Assembly: GCF_900104925.1 (NCBI RefSeq)
Contig: NZ_LT629735.1
Coordinates: 404,291-468,290 of the forward strand
Source: Opitutus sp. GAS368
Lineage (GTDB): Bacteria; Verrucomicrobiota; Verrucomicrobiia; Opitutales; Opitutaceae
DNA length: 64,000 bases
Direction: 5' to 3'
How positions within the stretch are numbered: the stretch's first letter is position 1; every line of letters begins with the position of its first letter. Positions 7,211-58,635 of the stretch are shown one piece after another. The position numbers and the translations under genes were made by a program. Under the pieces are notes generated by a model that worked only from the letters and a program-made list of their open reading frames with translations, made no database searches and had not been told where the DNA came from.

Positions 7211-7277
7211 GGTAGGGCGAATCCTCCGGATGAGCCGCGTGCCGATAAACGGCTCGTCAGTGACGACTCGCCCTGCC
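7211..7277. repeat. Dispersed palindromic repeat, family GGTAGGGCGAATCC
   Basis: Outer arms ggtagggcga and tcgccctgcc with inner arms around ccggatgagcc / ggctcgtca. Copies of the same family lie at 44996-45050 and, inverted and inside a gene, at 14037-14104. Confidence 0.8.
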
Positions 7278-7324
7278 TGCAGAGCAGTGTTGCCTTCCCC
7301 GCCCGACCCTTAAACTCCGGCACC

Positions 7325-10432: not shown

Positions 10433-10506
10433 GGTGGAACCCGGCCTCCGGACGGGTTTGTTTGGCTCACAGCGAGGAAAGCGCGTCCAGAGGCCGCGCT
10501 CCACCT
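10433..10506. repeat. Dispersed palindromic repeat, family GGTGGAACCCGGCCTCCGGAC
   Basis: Imperfect palindrome with arms ggtggaacccggcctccg and ggccgcgctccacc around cgcgtcc. A sister copy lies at 42637-42712. It fills the tyrA-aroA gap and ends about 14 bp before the aroA start. Confidence 0.8.
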
Positions 10507-12572: not shown

Positions 12573-12598
12573 GTGCTCCATTCACCCGATGCAGGGTT

Positions 12599-12681
12599 TG
12601 TCATCCTGAGTGCAGCGAAGGATCCAACGGGATGTCCGTCAGCGCAGATCACTCTGGATTCTTCACTTCATTCGGAATGAC
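12599..12681. repeat. REP-like repeat, family TGTCATCCTGAG (copy 1)
   Basis: Arms tgtcatcctgagtgcagcgaaggatcca and tggattcttcacttcattcggaatgaca flank a less conserved centre. Same family at 14774-16091 (split by the IS110 element), 44535-44624 and 58499-58581. A short direct repeat (tgtcctctgac, twice, 12696-12720) follows just before plsC. Confidence 0.85.
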
Positions 12682-12723
12682 AGACCTTGTTTGTCTGTCC
12701 TCTGACATCTGTCCTCTGACCCC

Positions 12724-13461: not shown

Positions 13462-14766
13462 TTACAGTCGAGCCAATGCAGCCTGCGTGACTTCCTTCAC
13501 GCTGCTGCAACCCGCGAGCCCGAGCGTCAGATCGAACTCGGCAAGCACGTTGCCGATGACTTCCTCGACGCCCGGCTGACCGGCGACCGCGAGACCATAG
13601 ACATACGGCCGACCGAGGCAGACCGCCGTCGCGCCGAGCGCGAGGGCCTTGAACACATCCGCCCCGCCACGCACGCCGCTGTCGAGCAAAACCGGGATCT
13701 TGCCATTAACGGCCTCCGCGACCGCGGGCAACGCGTCGAGCGAGGCGATCTCCCCGTCGATCTGCCGGCCGCCGTGGTTCGACACCACCAGCCCGTCAAT
13801 GCCGAGCGCAACCGCTTTCTTCGCGTCGTCGGGGTGCAACACCCCTTTGAGCAGGATGGGCAGCTTGGTGTGCTGACGCAGGAACTTCAGGTCCTCCCAC
13901 TGCAGCGACGGACGCGAGTAGGTCGTCATGAAGCGCTGCACCGCCCCGCGGGGATCGCCGGAGGTGAGGTTCTTGAGCAACCCGCCGGGAAAATTCGCCT
14001 TCTGCTCCAGCGCCGTGGCGATGGTCTGCCAGTTCAAGGTAGGGCGAGTCGTCCCTGACGAGCCGTCACTCGAACGCGGCTCATCCGGAGGATTCGCCCT
14101 ACCTAATTCGGCCCGGAACACCGGATCGCTCGTGTATTGCGCGATGCCCTGCCCCGTCATGAACGGCAGCGAACCGAGGTCGAGGTCACGCGGCCGCCAG
14201 CCGAGCATCGTCGTGTCGAGCGTCAGCACGATGGCCGAGCAACCGCAGGCCTCGGCCCGCTGCACGAACGAGGCCACGAGCTCGTTCGACCGGCTCCAGT
14301 AGAGCTGAAACCAGCGCGGACTGTCGCTCATCGCGGCGGCACAGGTTTCCATCGGCACCGAGGCCTGGTTGGAAAAGATATAGGGCACGTGCAGCGCCGC
14401 CGCGGCTTTCGCGACCGCGAGATCGGCGTCACGATGCACCAGGCCGAGCACGCCGACCGGACACAGCAGCAGCGGCGACGGCAGGCGACGGTCGAACAGC
14501 TCGACCGACAGGTCGCGTTTCTCGACGTCGCGCAGCACCCGCGGCACGATCCGCCAGCGTTCGAACGCCGCGCGGTTGGCGTCCATGGTTGATTCGCGCC
14601 CGGCTCCGCCCGCCACGTAGGCCCAAGCCTCGGCTGTCATCGCCGCTTGGGCGGCCTTTTCCAGTTCGGCTTGGCCGACCGGCACCGCGGGACGTTGTCC
14701 ACCCACGCCAGCGACATAGATGGTGCGCTGCCGTTTCCGGCCGATGTCTGAGTGTGGTTCGCTCAT
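13462..14766 (-). CDS. FMN-dependent alpha-hydroxy acid dehydrogenase/oxidase, carrying an in-frame repeat
   Basis: 434-residue flavoprotein of the L-lactate dehydrogenase / lactate oxidase / glycolate oxidase family, oxidising an L-2-hydroxy acid. Key segments: [49 protein letters not shown] (as in lactate oxidases/monooxygenases), [12 protein letters not shown] (Lys), [12 protein letters not shown] (active-site His about residue 328) and [18 protein letters not shown] (Arg, FMN phosphate). Residues about 221-243 ([20 protein letters not shown]...) are encoded by a dispersed palindromic repeat in the variable loop region and are not family sequence. The reading frame is intact. It could be an oxidase rather than a quinone-linked dehydrogenase; no transmembrane anchor is seen. 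Confidence 0.88.
14037..14104. repeat. Palindromic repeat inside the FMN dehydrogenase gene
   Basis: Begins aggtagggcgagtcg and ends ggattcgccctacct: an inverted copy of the intergenic family at 7211-7277 and 44996-45050. It is read through in frame as about 22 codons, mostly polar, Pro/Ser/Arg residues. Confidence 0.85.
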
Positions 14767-14833
14767 GACGTATTGTCATTCGGAGCGAAACGAAGAATCC
14801 AGATATTGTCGATGCACGAGGGACTGGATCCTT

Positions 14834-15123
14834 GTATGTCTTGGGCGATGAAAGTTGAAAAGGGTTTGGCCCGAGCCGGGCTCCGAGAATGGGCCCGATG
14901 GCTCGTCGGAGGAGGCCGGCTTGGGCTGGGTTGCCAAGTCAGTCCGGGTGGATTGACTGGAGGCCGCCCACCAGGGCGTTCGCCGTGCAGGCCGCACGGT
15001 GGACGGCAAGACCGACAGATCGCTGGATCCTTGGGCCCTCGAGCCCGTAGTGAAGCCGGGTCGCGGTCTTGTGCCTGGTCAAACCTCGAACCGCTGAAAG
15101 AGTCATGAACTCGTATTACAAGG
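14834..15123 (+). ncRNA. Predicted IS110 bridge RNA region
   Basis: Noncoding left end of the IS110 element. Target-loop candidate: ctggatcctt at 15023-15032 is identical to the left target half including core (14824-14833). agtgaag at 15049-15055 is complementary to the right target half: 6 of 7 at this site, and all 7 in the REP copies reading cttcact near 12661 and 44604. A small hairpin (gggc-N6-gccc) lies between the two guides. Donor-loop candidate: accgctg at 15090-15096 equals the element's last 7 nt (16063-16069), and tacaag at 15117-15122 is complementary to its first bases cttgta (14831-14836). These two also flank a hairpin (gagt ... actc). The RNA ends are not known. Confidence 0.6.
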
Positions 15124-16061
15124 TAGAGTCGACCGAACCTGTGCGGTACGTCAGCTTGGATATCTCCAAGGCGCGCCTGGACTACACCATTGCCGGCCAG
15201 AAGTGCCGGCAGGTCCCGAACACGGCAGCGGGCATTGCCACGCTGATCACCCTCGTCCAGCCGCTGCCGGGAGTGCGCGTGGTATGCGAAGCGACGGGCG
15301 GGTATGAACGCCGGTTGCTGGAGCAGCTGCACCAAGCGAGCGTACCGGTCTGCCGCTTGCAGCCCGGGCGGGTGCGTAACTTCGCCCGGGCGGAGGGCAC
15401 GCTGGCCAAAACCGACAAGATTGATGTGGGGCTGATCTATCGCTACGCTTGCGCGATGCATCCCCGCGTGGAGAAGCCGCCGCTGCCCGAGGTAACCGCG
15501 TTGCGCGAGCTGCTGGATTATCGCCGGCAGCTGGTAGATCAAGGCACGCAAACGGCCAACCGGCTGGAAACAGCAGGCCCGACCTTGCAGGCCTTGCTGC
15601 AGGCGCAACGCGAGCAACAAGCCGCCGCCCTGGCCAAGGCCGACGAGTTGGTGGCGCAGCAGGTGCGGGCGCATCCCGCCCTGCGGGCCAAGGCAGAGCG
15701 GATGCAGCAGTTGCAAGGGGTCGGTCCGGTGCTGGCGACGACGCTGTTGGCGTACCTGCCGGAACTGGGCGAAGAGGACGACAAGCGCATCGCCGCCTTG
15801 GTCGGAGTGGCCCCGCATGCCCACGACAGCGGCGAAACCTCCCGGCCGCGCCATGCCCGCGGTGGCCGCGTGGAGGTCCGCAACGTCCTGTACATGGCCG
15901 CAGTCAGTGCCTCCCAGCACAACCCGGTCCTGTCGCTGTTCTATCAGCGACTCCAGGCCGCCGGCAAACCCGCCAACGTCTGCCTGCTCGCCGTCATGCG
16001 CAAAATGATTGTCGTGCTCAACCGCATGCTCAAAGACCCACACTTTACCCTTGTCGGCTGA
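15105..16061 (+). CDS. IS110-family transposase (DEDD/Tnp serine recombinase)
   Basis: 318 residues. An N-terminal RuvC-like DEDD domain has Asp in SLDISKARLD (about residue 19), Glu in CEATGGYE (about 62) and two Asp in TDKIDV (about 103). The C-terminal IS116/IS110/IS902 domain has the LQGVGPVLATTLLAYLPELG helix-hairpin-like segment and the GxxSRPRHARGG...R..LYMAA region containing the candidate catalytic Ser. Established for IS621/IS110: the enzyme recombines DNA guided by a bridge RNA encoded at the element's end. A GTG at 15141 (VRYVSLDISK) is an alternative start that fits the usual short N-terminus and would leave the predicted donor loop (15090-15122) outside the CDS. Confidence 0.93.
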   Translation: MNSYYKVESTEPVRYVSLDISKARLDYTIAGQKCRQVPNTAAGIATLITLVQPLPGVRVVCEATGGYERRLLEQLHQASVPVCRLQPGRVRNFARAEGTLAKTDKIDVGLIYRYACAMHPRVEKPPLPEVTALRELLDYRRQLVDQGTQTANRLETAGPTLQALLQAQREQQAAALAKADELVAQQVRAHPALRAKAERMQQLQGVGPVLATTLLAYLPELGEEDDKRIAALVGVAPHAHDSGETSRPRHARGGRVEVRNVLYMAAVSASQHNPVLSLFYQRLQAAGKPANVCLLAVMRKMIVVLNRMLKDPHFTLVG

Positions 16062-42636: not shown

Positions 42637-42712
42637 AGGTGGAACCCGGCCTCCGGACGGGTTTTCAGGATTCGCGCATGACAGAAACGCGTCCGGAGGC
42701 CGCGTTCCACCT
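42637..42712. repeat. Dispersed palindromic repeat, family GGTGGAACCCGGCCTCCGGAC (copy 2)
   Basis: Arms ggtggaacccggcctccggac and gtccggaggccgcgttccacc, nearly perfect and better conserved than the copy at 10433-10506. It fills the glnD-kinase gap. Confidence 0.85.
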
Positions 42713-44492: not shown

Positions 44493-44624
44493 GACTACGG
44501 ATTACACGGATGCACACGGATACAATCCTTTGCCTGTCATTCTGAGCGGAGCGAAGAATCCATGAGCATGAGCATGACCGCCAGCGCATATCATTCTGGA
44601 TTCTTCACTCCGTTCAGAATGACA
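44493..44624. repeat. Repeat cluster: TACGGATTACACGGATG element and REP-like family TGTCATTCTGAG (copy 3)
   Basis: 44493-44522 carries tacggattacacggatgcacacggat. 44535-44624 is a REP-like palindrome with arms tgtcattctgagcggagcga and tcttcactccgttcagaatgaca. The second arm has cttcact, a perfect match to the proposed IS110 right-target guide. Confidence 0.8.
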
Positions 44625-44676
44625 GGTTTCGTATGTCCGTCCTCTGTCTTCTGATCTTCGTCCTCCGATTTTTCCC

Positions 44677-45000
44677 ATGAGCTTCACCACCCTCGCCTCC
44701 CTGCCGGCCAAGGAAATCTTCGGCGGCGCCGTCCGCGGCCATTACGCCCACCTCGAGCGCCTCACCATCGGCGAGGTCGCGTTGCAACCCAACACCACCA
44801 TCCCGCTGCACCAGCATCCGCACGAGCAGGTCACCTACGTGGTCGAAGGACGCTTCCAATTCACCATCGGCACCGAGACCACCGTCCTCGGGCCCGGCAT
44901 GGCCGCCCTCATCCCCGGCGGTGTCATGCATGGTGGCACGACCCTCACGGCGTGCCGCGTGATCGACCTGTTCTCACCGGTGCGCGAGGATTACCGGTAG
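44677..45000 (+). CDS. Small cupin domain protein
   Basis: 107 residues, a single cupin barrel. Motif 1 is PLHQHPHEQVTYVVEGRFQF (two His, Glu), and motif 2 is GPGMAALIPGGVMHGG (His), so the four usual metal ligands (His, His, Glu, His) are present. Such minimal cupins include isomerases, sugar-binding and quercetinase-like proteins; the substrate cannot be inferred. The stop codon TAG is the first part of a dispersed repeat (44996-45050), so the native C-terminus may have been set by repeat insertion. Confidence 0.88.
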   Translation: MSFTTLASLPAKEIFGGAVRGHYAHLERLTIGEVALQPNTTIPLHQHPHEQVTYVVEGRFQFTIGTETTVLGPGMAALIPGGVMHGGTTLTACRVIDLFSPVREDYR

Positions 45001-45050
45001 GGCGAATCCTCCGGATGAGCCGCGGCTCGTCGGGGACGACTCGCCCTACC
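44996..45050. repeat. Dispersed palindromic repeat, family GGTAGGGCGAATCC (copy 3)
   Basis: ggtagggcgaatcctccggatgagcc ... gacgactcgccctacc, same family as 7211-7277 and 14037-14104. Its bases 44998-45000 (tag) are the stop codon of the cupin gene. Confidence 0.85.
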
Positions 45051-45788: not shown

Positions 45789-45922
45789 GTAGGGCGGGAT
45801 CTCCGTATCCCGCCTTAGGTGGAGCGGCTTGACCTCAAGGCGCTTGCGTTGATGAAAGCGCGCTGGGGTCAGCACGTTCCACCGCAAGACGCAGAAGGCG
45901 GGATACGGAGATCCCGCCCTAC
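45789..45922. repeat. Nested palindromic repeats (GTAGGGCGGGATCTCCGTATCCCGCC outer, GGTGGA...TTCCACC inner)
   Basis: Outer arms gtagggcgggatctccgtat (45789-) and its complement ending 45922 enclose a second palindrome (about 45820-45890, ggtggagcggcttgacctc ... ggggtcagcacgttccacc). One repeat appears to have inserted into another. The outer repeat supplies the TAG stop (45921-45919) of the DUF985 gene. Confidence 0.8.
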
Positions 45923-58452: not shown

Positions 58453-58635
58453 GAAGAATCTCCGCGGATTACGCAGACACCCGCGGATACACCAGGATTG
58501 TCATCCTGAACGAAGTGAAGGATCCAGCAGGATTCCCGCGAGCGCATACCCTGCTGGATTCTTCGCTACGCTCAGAATGACAGGTATCGGAGATATGTTT
58601 TCTATCCGCGTTCATCGGCGTAATCCGCGGGGTTA
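58453..58635. repeat. Composite of two repeat families between purM and purF
   Basis: Outer element: gaatctccgcggattacgcag (58455-) and its inverted counterpart ttcatcggcgtaatccgcgggg (-58632). Nested in it is REP-like family TGTCATCCTGAG copy 4 (58499-58581; arms tgtcatcctgaacgaagtga and tcgctacgctcagaatgaca). The outer element ends in gtta, which supplies the purF stop codon TAA (58635-58633). Confidence 0.8.

Follow-up and report, generated by a model that had tools for sequence, protein, structure and literature searches.

This locus raises the question of how a repeat also found between genes comes to be translated as part of an apparently normal enzyme. The window, that is, the whole stretch of DNA analysed (64,000 nucleotides, positions 404291-468290 on the single 4.15-Mb contig of Opitutus sp. 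GAS368, genome G000 in this study), contains a palindromic repeat inside a dehydrogenase gene and two intergenic copies of it. The relevant features are given below in window coordinates.

13462-14766, minus strand: gene for an FMN-dependent alpha-hydroxyacid (lactate/glycolate-type) dehydrogenase or oxidase, 434 amino acids, with a Pfam FMN_dh match
14038-14103, minus strand: REPIN (inverted pair of GTAG REPs), 66 bp, within the host gene and translated as residues 222-243
14077-14103, minus strand: left REP, G-GTAG-GGC-GA-ATCC-TCC-GGAT-GA-GCC-G (from the alignment of 27 copies and the REP monomer structure)
14066-14076, minus strand: variable REPIN spacer, 11 nt (from the alignment of 27 copies)
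14038-14065, minus strand: right REP, inverted (from the alignment of 27 copies and the REP monomer structure)
7211-7278, plus strand: intergenic copy of the same REPIN, with no coding frame across it
44996-45050, plus strand: intergenic copy of the same REPIN with almost no spacer and no coding frame across it

The host gene has an intact open reading frame. Residues 39-432 of its product match Pfam FMN_dh over profile positions 1-349 of 350 (422 bits), which makes it a full member of the family and agrees with the preliminary description of an insert in the loop of an otherwise normal alpha-hydroxyacid oxidase. The same description gave the palindrome as 68 bp at 14037-14104; the palindrome was confirmed, but its actual size is 66 bp (14038-14103), one base fewer on each side. 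The predicted number of about 22 residues was also correct (222-243), but these residues are not simply extra: they take the place of part of the native loop, along with a KPP motif that is common in relatives. From YTSDP to GG, the segment spans 50 residues in G000 and 49 in G019, compared with 40-45 in most REP-free orthologues of Opitutaceae (L035, with a GG early in its loop, was set aside from these lengths). Among the PDB matches of the host (53 matched sequences) were lactate oxidase, lactate 2-monooxygenase, glycolate oxidase, mandelate dehydrogenase, and flavocytochrome b2. In the four of these 53 alignments shown, matching ends at residue 220 or before and restarts at 282-285, so the insert falls outside the stretch aligned to those solved relatives. 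The AlphaFold model of the dehydrogenase, built with 40 aligned sequences, had a mean pLDDT of 90.2, and residues 226-240, inside the insert and between two helices, were the sole stretch of at least three residues below 50. The insert lies in a loop between the barrel halves, with the predicted fold kept and the loop predicted to be unstructured. The gene adjoins an IS110-family transposase gene (15069-16061, plus strand; Pfam Transposase_20, 64.4 bits, and DEDD_Tnp_IS110, 61.4 bits). The dehydrogenase orthologue of G006 (L041 and L043) has its halves in different frames around query residues 264-272 and is probably frameshifted.

The BLAST search of the element against its own genome yielded 54 rows representing 40 distinct places, 14 rows being the other strand of the same place; the number 40 is a lower bound because a copy upstream of a RAYT gene (see below) is absent from the BLAST list. 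These 40 places, together with the in-frame reading, bear out the earlier view of a dispersed intergenic repeat family inserted in frame. Its claim that one element occurs once coding and twice noncoding also holds, both intergenic copies (reported as 7211-7277 and 44996-45050) being present with no frame crossing either. The element length over the 40 places ranged from 53 to 83 bp, mostly from 53 to 69 bp. Across 27 aligned copies, both arms (about 27 bases each) are nearly invariant and the spacer is hypervariable, from almost 0 to about 14 bases; most copies have GTAG at both ends, and a few have GTGG, GCAG, or similar. The REP monomer can be written as GTAG-GGC-GA-N4-TCC(C)-N4'-GA-GCC, comprising a paired stem, GA/GA mismatches, and a TCC loop. 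The N4 stem was fully paired in 13 of 21 distinct monomers taken from the loci collected in this analysis (pairing counted by script), against a mean of 6.1 and a maximum of 12 when the 3' halves were re-dealt 1000 times. The 30-bp ends were complementary at 100% in the 14037-14103 copy and at 93% in the 7211-7278 copy. When folded as single-stranded DNA, the coding copy reached -22.1 kcal/mol compared with a shuffle mean of -11.9 (z -5.05), and none of 200 shuffles matched it. Three REPIN copies (L009, L012, and L014) were near-identical in the 15 bases on either side, had no overlapping ORF of at least 60 residues, and gave no Rfam match to a structured RNA at gathering scores; they are perhaps part of a longer repeat.

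A REPIN is an inverted REP doublet with conserved ends and a variable spacer, and the associated RAYT gene is flanked by the same REPs. The model R1, built from the element, matched 16 of 21 genus genomes, with the top counts in G016 (134) and G000 (90); these counts take both strands of the palindrome and derive from at most the best 150 scored candidates per genome. RAYT-type genes (Pfam Y1_Tnp) were likewise found in 16 of the 21 genomes and at nine places in G000. The one at about 3.205 Mb in G000 (L091/L348), although barely above the Pfam Y1_Tnp cut-off (23.2 vs 23 bits), carries the same repeat on both flanks, and its frame stops at the TAG of the downstream GTAG. The inverted GTAG REP arms, the spacer, and the RAYT gene flanked by the repeat identify the element as a GTAG-superfamily REPIN. 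No target-site duplication was detected: none of the 26 copies with readable ends (L021 and L029, with unreadable ends, were left out of the flank tests) had a repeat of three or more bases abutting both ends. With offsets of up to three bases allowed, five of the 26 had a 3-base match (shuffled mean 5.2) and none a longer one. No clear target motif was seen in the flanks of these 26 copies beyond the G and C belonging to the ends. A MITE with target-site duplication was rejected on the lack of abutting direct repeats, and a single-strand mechanism would fit the missing duplication better than a duplicating one. Movement by a RAYT is presumed rather than observed, and the REPIN may be regarded as a non-autonomous mobile element, most likely spread in trans by the RAYT at about 3.205 Mb.

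The in-frame reading extends to other genes. At 14 of the 40 places, the copy lies in frame in a Pfam-supported gene; the hosts are the FMN dehydrogenase, NadE, Mfd, a WD40 protein (two copies), MnmA, an FtsJ-like methyltransferase, HrpA (three copies), UvrA, a TrmA/RumA-like methyltransferase, TatD, and a DinG-like helicase. Domain matches flank or span the insert in 11 of the 14; the FtsJ-like and TrmA-like methyltransferases and the last HrpA case have them on one side only. Under a stricter test of codon usage, with 27 ORFs of the window as the training set, 10 of the 40 places remained, all within the 14; in G016, the same test kept 6 of 41 copies, which represent the top of the match list and not a random sample. 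As to a possible preference of the coding copies for one frame, raised in the preliminary description, the frame GGT-AGG-GCG (GRA..) was used by 10 of the 14, GTA-GGG-CGA (VGR..) by four, and the third frame by none. Calculated by hand, the split between the two open frames falls short of significance (one-sided binomial P about 0.09). The third frame is closed because the TAG of GTAG falls in it. Whichever way round it lies, a REPIN can thus be read in the two other frames, and its translation would give a hydrophilic coil rich in Gly, Pro, Asp, Ser, and Arg. Extragenic location, the original meaning of the REP name, does not apply to the copy in the host gene and 13 others of the 40. It no longer defines the class because intragenic REPs are already accepted in the literature, as passages of PMC3733652 attest.

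To place the insert among relatives, dehydrogenase homologues were compared. The residues of the insert were looked for in distant orthologues, where they would mark ancestral protein sequence, and were seen in none of the distant loops displayed from the best 80 of 567 homologues. These 80 came from several phyla, and among the displayed loops a recognisable REP was present only in the Opitutaceae records L135, L136, L137, and L141, as judged by eye on the peptide, by which a novel repeat family in a distant phylum would escape notice; the loop of L203 was incomplete. The family search gave an enzyme match in 16 of 150 genomes (E up to 1e-100) and the genus search in 12 of 21. The enzyme tree, calculated with the loop excluded, comprised 27 rows (three outside the family) from the family and genus matches and some homologue records, with the duplicate rows L137, L139, L140, L142, and L144 left out. 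The loop was occupied in nine of the 27 rows, for which the tree requires a minimum of seven gains or losses; well-supported branches make at least five of these unavoidable. When the occupancy labels were shuffled, 192 of 500 trials gave a result as low, so that the real labels show no more clustering than shuffled ones. The occupied G000 and G011, which has no REP in the enzyme loop, were sisters with a support of 100/98. Eight of the nine occupants belong to REP type F1 (including variants with compensated stems, two of them termed F9) and one, in G009, to F7; the labels F1-F12 were coined in this analysis. In G016, the enzyme carries a 66-bp element in the opposite orientation to that of G000 with identical boundaries. 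Records L225 and L223 (G148 and G113) have extra REP halves in a row in the enzyme loop, forming an in-frame array, and L225 contains ..NSPYPGNSPYPENSPHP...

Four further hosts were aligned across the genus genomes, several of which are incomplete. They were selected since G000 carries an insert there and are thus not an unbiased genome-wide gene survey. The fold z-score was discarded as a cross-species detector of palindromic inserts: it was too noisy in GC-rich DNA, with many motif-confirmed REPs above -3, and families were for this reason called by motif. Some occupants were assigned by visual inspection or with a regular expression, and the assignment of decayed copies is ambiguous. In TatD, found in 18 of 21 genomes, a REP-like palindrome was present at one loop in seven of the 18, with eight short and three unclear loops (by eye); the occupants were F1 (G000, G016, and G006), F2 (G011), F8-like (G014), and an unassigned family (G003 and G009). 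Mfd, aligned for 18 genomes, had F1 (G000, G016, and G009), F2 (G011), and F8 (G010 and G014) at site 1, and F2 (G000), F1 (G016), and F5 (five genomes) at site 2. HrpA, aligned for 17 genomes, had four sites, with F1, F2, F8, and F11 among the occupants of site 1; F1, F3, and F4 at site 2, together with an F2-type copy in G013 called by pattern; and F1 (G000), F3 (G016), and F2 (G014) at site 3. NadE carried F1 in G000 and F6 in G016, and unrelated linkers in G011 and others; in G009, a model match lies within the NadE gene by coordinates. At each of the TatD, Mfd, HrpA, and NadE sites, other genomes had no recognisable REP. A short in-frame palindrome of the CCTTCGCCAAGGCTACGG type was seen by eye inside the HrpA REPs of G016 (L303), G003 (L304), G014 (L306), and G013 (L307), apparently as a nested insertion.

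The same sites thus hold different families, even in the closest sisters. G000 and G011, united at 100/100 in a four-gene tree (TatD, NadE, HrpA, and Mfd, gappy columns removed), have F1 and F2, respectively, with the same boundaries in TatD and Mfd site 1, F2 and F5 in Mfd site 2, and F1 and an empty loop in HrpA sites 1 and 3. NadE of G001, G017, G016, G002, and G008 was left out of this tree, and G003, G004, G017, and G020 were represented by less than half of the columns. The minimum number of changes between filled and empty states was four at HrpA site 1, four at HrpA site 3, four at Mfd site 1, and six at TatD, based on 14 of 17 rows for each HrpA site, 10 of 18 for Mfd site 1, and 15 of 18 for TatD; unclear rows were excluded, and the decayed HrpA copies of G018 and G012 were coded as filled by eye. 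Among the filled rows (7, 11, 3, 6, and 7 at HrpA sites 1-3 and Mfd sites 1-2, with 4, 4, 3, 3, and 3 families), the family changes numbered 3, 5, 2, 2, and 2. No exact empty site was found in the loops of relatives, including those of the sister G011, because REP-free loops, too, differ in both length and sequence, as in NadE of G011.

The families behave as separate RAYT systems. The F2 and F3 patterns (up to three mismatches) occurred in 9 and 15 of 21 genomes, respectively, and the reversed-pattern control gave zero. RAYT-type genes flanked on both sides within a few hundred bases were found for F1 (L348), F2 (L349 and L350), F3 (L353), F4 (L365, L373, and L374), F5 (L072), F6 (L098), F7 (L097), F8 (L352 and L362), and F12 (L096). 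Eight REP families that occupy protein loops have a RAYT of their own in the genus. No RAYT for F9 was found among the loci scanned, and most of the remaining RAYT loci scanned were not flanked on both sides by any of these motifs. The window itself holds other repeats of this kind. Intergenic F4 dimers (GTGGAACCCGGCCTCCGGACGGG) lie at 10434-10504 and 42639-42710, and an F4-flanked RAYT lies about 9 kb past the window end (L373, genome positions 477207-477629). An inverted F12 pair (GTAGGGCGGGATCTCCGTATCCCGCC) occupies 45789-45922 with about 80 bases between its members, the F12-flanked RAYT being located at about 1.775 Mb (L096). Another palindromic repeat, of the TGTCATTCTGAGCGNAGCGAAGAATCCA type, occurs at 12595-12711, 14774-14803, 44526-44653, and 58495-58611.

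It is highly probable, taking these data together, that the segment is a REPIN spread by a RAYT into a tolerant loop and that such loops are reoccupied by different REP families. The dehydrogenase loop would be a reusable landing place, and loops or linkers of TatD, NadE, HrpA, and Mfd would likewise have been occupied several times by different families. Surface loops tolerating repeated REPIN insertion are the most likely basis. The protein would then be made with the segment, which would be tolerated rather than beneficial, with multiple insertions as the route. Among the points that count against this explanation, the boundaries match across species more exactly than plain loop tolerance predicts.

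One route, with about an even chance of being the true one, is that REPINs inserted repeatedly and independently, were kept in the few loops able to take up 20-30 additional hydrophilic residues, and were purged elsewhere. The scattering of occupied and empty states on the trees, the hypervariability of the loops even without REPs, and the predicted structure, in which the fold would be kept, are in its favour. The coincidence of boundaries speaks against it, as does the recurrence of sites: four of the six strict in-frame G016 sites sampled (HrpA site 1, Mfd sites 1 and 2, and WD40) are also REP sites of G000, an overlap far above that of a random pick among thousands of genes by a rough estimate. 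The other two strict in-frame hosts in G016 (a carboxyl transferase and a radical-SAM protein) do not appear in the list of 14 for G000.

Exchange in place is possible, and we favour it less: later RAYTs, or recombination via the common ends (GGTAGGG...CCCTACC), would swap or flip the resident REPIN while its boundaries stay fixed. The right ends of different families fall on one alignment column in six genomes at HrpA site 1 (G000, G016, G003, G014, G013, and G017), in three at site 3, and in five at site 4, whereas the left ends shift by 3-6 columns in some genomes (715 or 718 at site 1, 1725 or 1731 at site 3). Moreover, the common ends are only about 7-9 bp long, and an aligner can draw similar ends together. 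The shared boundaries of the sisters G000 and G011 with a change of family (TatD and Mfd site 1), and the reversed enzyme elements of G000 and G016, both 66 bp within the same boundaries, are what exchange would produce. Same-family arms of G000 and G016 differ at 0 of 18 third positions, compared with 29% in the flanks at HrpA site 1 and 38% at Mfd site 1. Other arm pairs are less extreme (G000-G007 at HrpA site 4, 2 of 18 vs 38%; G000-G009 at Mfd site 1, 1 of 18 vs 43%), and recent independent insertions would leave little-diverged arms too. A biochemical precedent is reported in part of PMC8266576, where E. coli TnpA-REP cleaves and recombines single-stranded REPs in vitro. On the other side, near relatives with the same sites are free of REPs, so plain gain and loss occur too; the family changes are the minimum demanded by the number of families at four of the five sites (all but HrpA site 2); and no intermediate was seen among the occupants compared. 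A stronger proposal is somewhat doubtful: that protein loops in Opitutaceae serve several separate RAYT-REP systems as common docking sites, where the REP of one system displaces that of another, reversal included, and that mobile hairpins in this way continually rewrite the same in-frame segments of housekeeping enzymes.

Selection of the encoded peptide for a function in the host protein, such as regulation, oligomerisation, or nucleic-acid contact, is quite improbable. Many hosts do act on nucleic acids (HrpA, Mfd, UvrA, TatD, DinG-like, MnmA, and TrmA-like), as passages of Di Nocera et al. (PMC3733652) also note for other species, but one site takes different peptides, frames, and orientations, close relatives do without the segment, and its predicted order is low. 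The least probable reading is that a single ancient insertion, or a stretch of ancestral protein sequence, diverged separately in the different lineages: several Opitutaceae have similar residues (GRA..PDEP and ..PY/RPT) at this position, the TatD copies of G000, G016, and G006 share one orientation, and some filled HrpA orthologues have residues after the insert in common, but the families have unrelated sequences, lie scattered through the genomes, and are served by separate RAYTs, and the sisters G000 and G011 differ. Ancestral protein sequence as such was rejected, since the segment is absent from the distant homologues compared and its carriers are scattered on the tree.

The REPIN studied here follows the doublet and RAYT plan of known REPINs, with the difference that about a third of the BLAST-detected copies lie in an open frame inside genes. 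REPs are usually described as extragenic; in these genomes, they repeatedly supply coding sequence, and in close relatives the same protein loops are shared by several RAYT-REP systems. The loops of HrpA, Mfd, TatD, NadE, and the dehydrogenase seem to accept 20-30 foreign residues and could serve protein engineering. Intragenic GTAG REPs and the in-frame inserts of Rickettsia are in print, so the kind is already known. In passages of Di Nocera, De Gregorio, and Rocco (2013; PMC3733652), intragenic GTAG REP dimers are described with the highest number in Opitutus terrae; the hosts include uvrA, DNA ligase, RNA helicases, and DNA repair genes, 20-30 residues are added in frame, the TAG of GTAG serves as the stop codon of flanking ORFs, and a linkage to RAYTs is noted. 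A role of GTAG is described for TnpA-REP in part of PMC8266576. The elements reported here resemble those of O. terrae, as presented in these passages, in being GTAG dimers in frame, in having uvrA as a host, in their RAYT linkage, and in coming from the same family, Opitutaceae. The same passages record different REPs at about the same site in recB of two Xanthomonas species; several RAYT-linked families in the same loops across many species, turnover between sisters, and reversal of orientation are found only here in comparison with them. Occupation of the same loops by several families in Opitutaceae was not found in open-licence PubMed Central, a weak negative given that one search missed PMC3733652 itself. 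The scale of this reuse, with a RAYT for most families, is unusual and goes beyond the print found there.

The palindromic elements of Rickettsia (RPE) are the other close comparison. According to parts of PMC10969869 and PMC3767692, they lie in frame in unrelated genes at solvent-exposed positions, measure about 100-150 bp, have a CGTC end where tagged, and are said to be a class without a dedicated transposase. The REPIN described here shares with RPE, as so portrayed, the in-frame insertion in recognisable ORFs; unlike RPE, it measures 53-83 bp, is tagged by GTAG, and is linked to a RAYT. For orthologous Rickettsia sites with different RPE groups, a passage of PMC3767692 favours a common origin for three groups and does not exclude hotspots. 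In Opitutaceae, families that each have their own transposase and population of copies differ between sister genomes at the same site, which makes this question of hotspots versus diverged insertions directly testable.
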